A DNA stretch of 64,000 bases from Methanocaldococcus vulcanius M7 (GTDB taxonomy: Archaea > AGJL01 > Methanococci > Methanococcales > Methanocaldococcaceae). Under the pieces are notes generated by a model that did no database searches, was not told the DNA's origin, and saw only the letters and a program-made list of their open reading frames with translations. Made by a program: the position numbers and the translations under genes. The stretch covers positions 806,001 through 870,000 of the forward strand of contig NC_013407.1 in assembly GCF_000024625.1 (NCBI RefSeq). The letters are read 5' to 3'. Shown in pieces: positions 35,102-36,554 of the stretch (position 1 is its first letter; the number at the start of each line of letters is the position of its first letter).

Positions 35102-35471
35102 TATCTCTCCTCCGTAATTTCTTTTTAATTTTAAAATTTTAATAATTTACCGATACATATCTTGTTTTTTTTAACTTTGTTTTTAATAATTTTAACCTTT
35201 ACTTACATTTATAAATCTAAATGTGATATAAAGTATGATGTTTTTGTTTTTCTTTTTATTTATTTTTTATTATTTTTTTATTTTAGAGACGTTTTATACT
35301 AAGCACATTAAAAAAGAAACAAAGTTAAAAAGAAAATAACGTTAAAAAATAGAAAACACCACATATAAAAATAATAAAAGATATATTTTGATTTTTTTAC
35401 GTCGGATTATGAATAGTTAATGACTTATATTATTATGGCCAATATATTATATGGTATACATAATACAAAAT
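35102..35471. other. AT-rich spacer upstream of hflX and of RNA island
   Basis: About 370 bp without a gene. It contains the hflX ribosome site, long T- and A-tracts, and AATATATTATATGG at 35441-35454, a TATA-like box that would place a plus-strand transcript start at about 35472, exactly at the beginning of the GC-rich island. Confidence 0.4.
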
Positions 35472-35680
35472 GACGGCTCTCCGCCCTAAAGGGCGGAGTT
35501 TCGGGAGAGCAGAGGGCTCCGCCAAAGCCACTACCCCTATCCCTTAACGGGACTCGGGGCTACCTCCTCTCAACCGTTAGCCCCCAGCGGTGGGATTTTC
35601 GATACCGAAGCGAAGCTTCGGGTAGCAAAATCGAAGATTTTGCCTGAATCCCACCCATAATAACGTGGACTGGGGGCAAT
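35472..35680 (+). ncRNA. GC-rich structured RNA candidate
   Basis: About 200 nt of GC-rich DNA stands out from the AT-rich surroundings and has no convincing ORF. Helices: CTCCGCCC/GGGCGGAG (35479-35498, TAAA loop); AGAGG/CCTCT (35511-35515, 35566-35570); CCCC/GGGG and TCCC/GGGA (35534-35559); then GCCCCCAG/CTGGGGGC (35580-35587, 35670-35677) enclosing GGTGGGATT/AATCCCACC (35589-35597, 35647-35655) and two hairpins with GAA loops (35605-35621 and 35625-35643). A TATA box precedes it. Strand + is inferred from that box. It is not RNase P, SRP RNA, rRNA or tRNA by inspection. It could also be part of an IS605-like non-autonomous element. Confidence 0.6.
35481..35502 (+). repeat. Left copy of GC-rich end motif
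   Basis: CCGCCCTAAAGGGCGGAG followed by TTTC; a second, decayed copy in the same orientation lies at 35789-35807 (CCGCCCTAAGCAGAGTTTC). Direct-orientation hairpin motifs at both ends are a feature of IS200/IS605-type elements. No transposase or TnpB gene is present between them. Confidence 0.4.
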
Positions 35681-35698
35681 AATTATTATATCAAATTG

Positions 35699-35708
35699 GA
35701 TATATAAG
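35699..35708 (+). promoter_or_regulatory. TATA box for the DUF364-ABC operon
   Basis: GATATATAAG is followed by a predicted start near 35731, so the mRNA would have a structured leader of about 115 nt before the ATG at 35845. Confidence 0.45.
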
Positions 35709-35730
35709 ATTTCCCCACCCACCTCCCCTA

Positions 35731-35830
35731 TCTTCGAGCGTAGCGAGGAGAGTAATGAAAACCGTTAGGTTTTCATCTGAATTCATTACCGCCCTAAGCA
35801 GAGTTTCTTAGCGACAACTAATGTAAATAA
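35731..35830 (+). promoter_or_regulatory. Structured 5' leader with competing hairpins
   Basis: Within the predicted leader ATGAAAACC (35755-35763) pairs with GGTTTTCAT (35768-35776) around GTTA. TAATGAA (35753-35759) can instead pair with TTCATTA (35782-35788). The two pairings share bases and exclude each other in part. A TGAAT segment follows the hairpin as it also does after the last hairpin of the upstream island. Mutually exclusive stems before metal-related genes suggest a switch, but no ligand domain was recognised. Confidence 0.35.
35789..35807 (+). repeat. Right, decayed copy of GC-rich end motif
   Basis: CCGCCCTAAGCAGAGTTTC matches the motif at 35481-35502 with a 3-bp deletion and a substitution in the stem. 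It lies 37 bp before the DUF364 start codon. Confidence 0.4.
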
Positions 35831-35844
35831 ATTTGGTGAACGTT

Positions 35845-36552
35845 ATGGTTGATGTTAGAGGGTTTTTAAAAGATCTTGTTGAAAAGAATAGGTTATTGGA
35901 TGAGGTTGTGGAGATAAAGATTTCTGATACTAAGTTGGATACTACTCGAATTAAGGATTATCCTTTGATGAGTGGGAAGGAGATTTTGTTGAGGGCTGAT
36001 TTTAAAGGATGTTATGGGGATGCCTTCACAGATAAACCCGTTGAATTTAAAGGAACTGTAAGGGAGCTTTTGGATAAAGGAAGTAGGGCAGAGGTTGTGG
36101 CAACGTTAAATGCAGTTATGAGGTATCTTGGGTTAGTGGATAGAACAGTCCACTGCTCGGGGGATGAGCCAGAGAAGTGTGCAAAAGAGTTGGTTAAATA
36201 TTTAAAAGAATTAAATCCGAAGAAGATCGGAGTTGTTGGATTACAACCAGCATTTGTTAAAGAGATTGTAGATACCTTTGGAGCGGAAAATGTATTAGTA
36301 AGTGATTTAAATCCTGAAAATATTGGAAAAATAAAGTATGGAGTTAGAATAATCCACGGAAAATACAATGAAGAAGTAATAAAAAACTCAGATATTGTTT
36401 TAGCAACTGGCTCAACCATCGCAAACGGAACTTTCGAAGAAATCTGGAACCTCGCTAAAAAACACAACAAAAAAATAATATTCTACGGCACAACAATAGC
36501 AGGAATCTCCAAAATATTAAAAGTCGAAAGATTCTGCAAACTCGGGAGATAA
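35845..36552 (+). CDS. DUF364 (DUF4213) putative heavy-metal chelation protein
   Basis: This 235-residue protein has the two-part DUF4213/DUF364 architecture. The first half contains GCYGDAFTDKPVEF and NAVMRYLGLVDRTVHC; the second half contains a Rossmann-like VGVVGLQPAFV, VSDLNPENIG, and the conserved VLATGSTIANGTFEEI. Family members are thought to bind or process transition-metal species and often lie near molybdate/tungstate or nitrogenase genes. ATG 35845 follows GGTGAACG. The gene ends 2 bp before an ABC ATPase of the molybdate/tungstate kind, so a role in Mo/W handling is inferred. Confidence 0.75.
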   Translation: MVDVRGFLKDLVEKNRLLDEVVEIKISDTKLDTTRIKDYPLMSGKEILLRADFKGCYGDAFTDKPVEFKGTVRELLDKGSRAEVVATLNAVMRYLGLVDRTVHCSGDEPEKCAKELVKYLKELNPKKIGVVGLQPAFVKEIVDTFGAENVLVSDLNPENIGKIKYGVRIIHGKYNEEVIKNSDIVLATGSTIANGTFEEIWNLAKKHNKKIIFYGTTIAGISKILKVERFCKLGR

Positions 36553-36554
36553 AC

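Follow-up and report, generated by a model that had tools for sequence, protein, structure and literature searches.

A GC-rich structured RNA candidate of Methanocaldococcus vulcanius M7 lies within a transposase-less IS200/IS605-type mini-element and resembles a TnpB omegaRNA

Introduction

The analysed window, 64,000 nucleotides of the M. vulcanius M7 genome (positions 806,001 to 870,000 of NC_013407.1), contains a GC-rich stretch of about 200 nt (35472-35680) with a number of perfect helices in otherwise AT-rich DNA. The question raised by this locus is which kind of RNA, if any, is encoded here, and on which strand. A preliminary description, made from the sequence alone, took the stretch for a free-standing structured RNA, read on the plus strand from a TATA box that placed its start at 35472. 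Its observation was confirmed by the present analysis and its interpretation is partly supported: the stretch appears to be one end of a small mobile element, and its RNA, predicted on the opposite strand, resembles the guide RNAs of TnpB nucleases.

Results

Fold and composition

All of the helices of the preliminary description are present, including the outer stem, in which GCCCCCAG (35580-35587) pairs with CTGGGGGC (35670-35677), the inner stem formed by GGTGGGATT (35589-35597) and AATCCCACC (35647-35655), and two hairpins (35605-35621 and 35625-35643) with GAA loops in the plus-strand reading. The GC enrichment was verified as well, the island reaching 0.61 (61%) against 0.15-0.2 in the upstream DNA. 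Both strands beat their shuffles by far, and the minus strand (-105 kcal/mol, z -6.3) folds clearly better than the plus strand (-93 kcal/mol, z -4.7).

Rfam searches at gathering scores found nothing in the window, and ARAGORN predicted no tRNA there. The statement that the RNA matches no class has nevertheless to be revised, since it resembles both HgcC (RF00062) and the haloarchaeal TnpB omegaRNA family sot0042 (RF02656), in each case below the curated cut-off.

The mini-element, its ends and its target

Comparison of copies identifies the GC-rich stretch as one end of a 352-bp mobile element of the IS200/IS605 type that carries no transposase gene (Table 1). Three copies are present in the M. 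vulcanius genome, namely the window copy and two near-full ones with unrelated flanks, and relatives were found in seven other genomes of Methanococcales. The tetranucleotide TTAC, a target shared with IS608 (PMC8612924), precedes the left end in all 13 window-type copies in which this end is readable. A hairpin of the form CTCCGnnn-TTTA-nnnCGGAG, in the same orientation, is found at each end, the left one having decayed in the window copy, and the right end terminates with GTCA, after which unique DNA follows in each copy. The subterminal hairpins in the same orientation at both ends, the lack of inverted terminal repeats and the insertion on the 3' side of a short, fixed target, together with the GTCA end, are marks of the IS200/IS605 family. 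The mini-elements are also PATE- or MITE-like, being dispersed in several copies that lack a transposase gene and share their ends with an autonomous element.

No clean empty site, with precise excision and no target duplication, was found. At one candidate (L002) the ORF is open through the joint, but its homologues have about 76 extra residues between the two halves, so that this site is not clean. For the window insertion, the flank offers no orthologous empty site for comparison, because the adjoining DUF364 gene is itself a recent duplicate from another operon. This 720-bp duplicate (35834-36553) is 99.7-100% identical to C1:1055996-1056714, which follows an ABC transporter permease gene, as in G001 and G004, and the copy of the gene in the window begins 11 bp from the target site of the mini-element.

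Table 1. Features of the mini-element and of its predicted RNA (positions in the window)
Feature	Positions	Strand	Remarks and evidence
Whole mini-element	35471..35822	-	Left end 35822, right end 35471; no inverted terminal repeats; copies in the genome and relatives elsewhere
TTAC target tetranucleotide adjoining the left end	35823..35826	-	Comparison of left ends
Left end with subterminal hairpin	35784..35822	-	Hairpin decayed in the window copy; L003 has it intact (CTCCGAGC-TTTA-GCTCGGAG); alignment of copies
Palindrome within the left-end segment	35757..35774	-	Common to HgcC-type elements
TATA box, the element's own promoter (predicted)	35700..35707	-	TATA-like motif at a set spacing
5' domain of the RNA	35580..35677	-	Covariation; homologous hairpin within tnpB ORFs
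Inserted double-hairpin module in the apical loop	35605..35643	-	Hairpins with GAA loops (read as UUC in the RNA); L055 and L131 lack it, similar modules elsewhere
3' domain, TnpB omegaRNA scaffold	35471..35583	-	Match to model R1 (98 bits, from helices other than a misplaced one and from sequence); homology to tnpB 3' ends; sot0042 match
20-nt deletion site	35514..35516	-	Scaffold hairpin lost; alignment
Right-end hairpin, final helix of the scaffold	35479..35498	-	CTCCGCCC-TTTA-GGGCGGAG; double changes in 3 of 9 pairs
Putative guide, host DNA just beyond the right end	35451..35470	-	Different in every copy; length assumed from ISDra2 (PMC8612924)

Autonomous relatives

A complete element is found in a related genome (G001), where a left end after TTTTTAC, a gene of an intact 144-aa Y1 TnpA, a gene of a 412-aa TnpB and a right end follow one another; this TnpA lies between ends that match those of the mini-element. 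The same genome has five near-identical mini-elements with the same ends as its complete element, as well as one diverged copy. In M. vulcanius itself, the TnpB of a related element (C1:47193) is intact, consists of 412 aa with OrfB_IS605 and TNB domains, and is similar to solved TnpB and Cas12f; the TnpA carries in-frame stops. Another genome, G006, harbours the mini-element and no TnpB of this type, so the mini-element can persist without a TnpB partner. M. vulcanius also retains a decayed remnant of the autonomous element (L029, C1:1220446-1220792), in which a left end and a fragment of tnpB are left together with a scaffold to which model R1 (see below) still gives 98 bits.

Strand and promoter of the RNA

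The consensus structure was built for the minus strand from ten homologues of six genomes, and comprises 71 pairs, of which 13 are changed on both sides, with 96.5% of cells paired. Cells with double changes number 24, where shuffles gave 7.4 +/- 2.1 (0 of 500) and sliding controls 0-4. Because related sequences can make such a shuffle comparison look too favourable, and this alignment also served to derive the structure, the test of the strand matters. This test is provided by the wobble pairs: the minus-strand consensus contains 103 G-U cells versus 9 A.C cells, and the best consensus for the plus strand has A.C interrupting the same outer helices. The RNA is thus supported on the minus strand, opposite to what had been proposed.

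In 15 of the 15 copies examined, a TATA-like motif precedes the first base of the stem by 29-34 nt, so that the start of the RNA is predicted at about 35677-35680. From there it is predicted to run on the minus strand to 35471 and beyond. The formerly proposed start at 35472 falls within 1 nt of the boundary of the element (35471), and is therefore the edge of a transposon rather than the beginning of an RNA; the plus-strand TATA-like sequence assigned to it belongs to the unique flank and is absent from other copies. What holds of the initial idea is the structured RNA itself, as its helices are conserved among homologues and show compensatory changes across species; its strand, its start and the lack of a known class do not hold, the promoter being predicted on the minus strand and the RNA lying inside a mini-element. 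The end of an insertion sequence lacking conserved helices had been named as the finding that would speak against an RNA: the stretch is indeed such an end, but the helices are conserved.

The 3' domain

The 3' domain is common to the mini-elements and the tnpB genes, and compensatory changes were seen in its alignment with five tnpB loci. In G001, the scaffold of a mini-element and the 3' end of the intact tnpB are identical at 117 of 118 positions, and a scaffold homologous to the tnpB 3' end, or right end, is what characterises TnpB omegaRNAs. A covariance model of this domain, R1, matches tnpB-linked as well as solo copies in the order; it was built on a hand-drawn scaffold in which a single helix (columns 57-60 with 69-72 of A4) was misplaced, and its scores therefore rest on the other helices and on the sequence. 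The sot0042 model was matched over its full length in the window (25.6 bits, E 9.5e-5) and in L054 (39.6 bits, E 3e-7), neither of which reaches the gathering score of 88 bits. This family of haloarchaeal sotRNAs is treated as omegaRNA (PMC12558985).

Each right end is followed by a unique sequence, which might serve as the guide. A 20-nt hairpin of the scaffold, kept in L002 and the other relatives, is missing in the window copy and in L003, and the deleted form has probably moved itself, because these two copies occupy different sites. With one scaffold hairpin lost, the window copy may be a weak or dead guide.

The 5' domain and its counterpart within tnpB

The least expected result of the analysis concerns the 5' domain, a bulged hairpin that was also recognised inside tnpB ORFs. 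It consists of an outer stem (35677-35669 with 35588-35580), a conserved 13-nt bulge (35668-35656) and an inner stem (35655-35647 with 35597-35589). The model of the whole domain matches the mini-elements and also, some 650 nt upstream of the 3' scaffold, the tnpB ORFs of their lineage; its remaining hits are mainly to the double-hairpin module by itself. A model restricted to the hairpin has matches at 22 places in 9 of 198 genomes, and these are 15 mini-elements and 7 tnpB ORFs. The hairpins of the tnpB ORFs fold strongly (z -4.7 to -6.4). Between tnpB and the mini-elements, 8 of 18 pairs have double changes with 97.4% of cells paired, although most of these changes may trace to one split between the two groups, some occurring within tnpB alone. 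The bulge, AGUCCAnGUUnnUAUGGGU, is nearly constant between both groups, and since the stems were rebuilt while the bulge barely changed, the alignment suggests that selection acts on the RNA.

We infer that TnpB may bind this hairpin. A tentative extension, to which we give somewhat less than even odds, is that the TnpB guide RNA of this lineage is bipartite, the bulged hairpin in the middle of the tnpB ORF being a second domain recognised by TnpB for recruitment, processing or autoregulation, and that solo mini-elements survive by fusing this hairpin directly to the omegaRNA scaffold; HgcC would then, by extension, be a TnpB guide RNA too.

The two hairpins with GAA loops were considered as part of the RNA core and rejected, being an inserted module that is missing in L055 and L131. 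Apart from its place in the apical loop here, this palindromic double hairpin (GCGAAATCnnnGATTTCGC and CGAAGCTTCGCTTCG) is repeated between genes and in tnpB 3' regions (35605-35643; L132-L136, L138, L034, L137, L106, L108); some copies lack it cleanly, which gives it the look of a small mobile palindrome.

Relation to HgcC

HgcC is a GC-rich archaeal RNA family that has been described as being of unknown function (PMC5496347). Five shorter sister elements in the M. vulcanius genome (L004-L008, 247-265 bp; C1:145754, 301406, 1264989, 665435 and 1396707) score above the HgcC gathering threshold. The window element is of the same kind as these, with a shared left-end segment and TATA region, the same right-end hairpin and GTCA end, and weak reciprocal matches of the models. 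It differs from them in its 5' part and in its target, which is TTAC rather than TCAC, and reaches only 21.4 bits with the HgcC model, below the gathering score of 50 bits. The TCAC target of the five sister elements is the complement of the ribosome-binding motif GGTGA, which would explain why several of them lie directly upstream of start codons.

Nearly all of the HgcC RNAs examined in related genomes end at the same right-end GAGGTCA, and HgcC adjoins an oppositely oriented tnpB in five genomes (G012, G005, G004, G024 and G016). A second lineage of TnpB (about 370 aa) is encoded in the orientation opposite to the HgcC RNA inside one element (L101 of G012 and L099 of G005), whereas in the usual layout the guide RNA lies at the 3' end of tnpB. 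In Thermococcus kodakarensis, dRNA-seq detected five HgcC RNAs in cells, three of which start inside transposase genes (PMC4247193). None of the papers searched mentions HgcC together with TnpB. Position and the weak reciprocal model matches support the view of HgcC as a putative TnpB guide RNA.

Discussion

The explanation that we favour, with a probability of roughly 0.7, is that the GC-rich stretch encodes a solo omegaRNA, which has its own promoter within a non-autonomous element of the IS200/IS605 type and would let TnpB act for this element in trans. RNA polymerase, starting from the predicted promoter, would make an RNA of about 210 nt, in which the bulged hairpin (35677-35580) is followed by the omegaRNA scaffold (35583-35471) and then by host DNA past the right end, and this host-derived 3' end would be a site-specific guide. 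TnpB supplied from elsewhere in the genome, where an intact gene exists, would bind the solo RNA and cut the TTAC-flanked empty site left by excision, and repair from the sister copy would restore the mini-element. Such retention of an element by TnpB cutting the empty site after excision was proposed for ISDra2 (PMC8612924). Against a current function of this kind speak the 20-nt deletion in the window copy, the broken TnpA of its own genome, the persistence of the element in G006 and the Rfam matches below gathering scores.

The predicted RNA is similar to the omegaRNA or reRNA of known TnpB systems, such as ISDra2 (PMC8612924) and the haloarchaeal sotRNAs (RF02656, PMC12558985), in that a scaffold derived from the right end, with homology to the 3' ends of tnpB, precedes flanking DNA presumed to be the guide. 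Unlike these, it is solo, with its own promoter and no tnpB in cis, and has an extra bulged hairpin at its 5' end; the autonomous element keeps the corresponding hairpin far upstream of the scaffold, inside the tnpB ORF. The mini-element also resembles the PATEs of Haloquadratum (PMC3119063), which are transposase-free, have near-terminal palindromes and originate from IS605-type elements, yet PATEs are described mainly by their ends (PMC3119063), whereas the core kept in this mini-element is a conserved RNA with a predicted promoter of its own, resembling a guide RNA.

In one alternative, which concerns DNA only, an IS605-derived, PATE- or MITE-like element has palindromes for recognition by TnpA on single-stranded DNA and its RNA-like structure is a functionless leftover. 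Archaea commonly have elements that lack a transposase and bear palindromes near their ends (PMC3119063), and the presence of the scaffold-damaged form at two sites implies that movement does not need the lost hairpin. We consider this alternative unlikely: recognition of ends by TnpA would not be expected to bring about the covariation seen in internal helices distant from those ends, the preference of wobble pairs for one strand or the conservation of the promoter. Next, and similarly improbable, is a decoy or regulatory role, in which the solo RNA would not guide cleavage but would hold back TnpB or transposition by binding TnpB or by competing with tnpB mRNA. The solo RNA has both the scaffold and the hairpin present in tnpB mRNA, and truncated copies like that of the window would still bind and not guide; however, in every copy the scaffold ends precisely at the right end, the point from which a functional guide would extend, and a decoy would not need such an end, even if transposition itself also conserves it. 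The free-standing plus-strand RNA starting at 35472 and unrelated to transposons was rejected as very improbable, despite good helices and high GC on that strand too, because the start is the edge of a transposon, the TATA-like site lies outside the element and is not common to its copies, the fold is worse, and G-U changes of the minus strand become A.C.

The covarying hairpin hidden in the nuclease gene may help the nuclease to find or process its guide, and this could matter for hyperthermophilic genome-editing nucleases. The analysis offers a concrete explanation for HgcC, and turns an apparently orphan structured RNA into part of a testable, RNA-guided system operating at high temperature, in which solo guides with their own promoters would depend on TnpB acting in trans.
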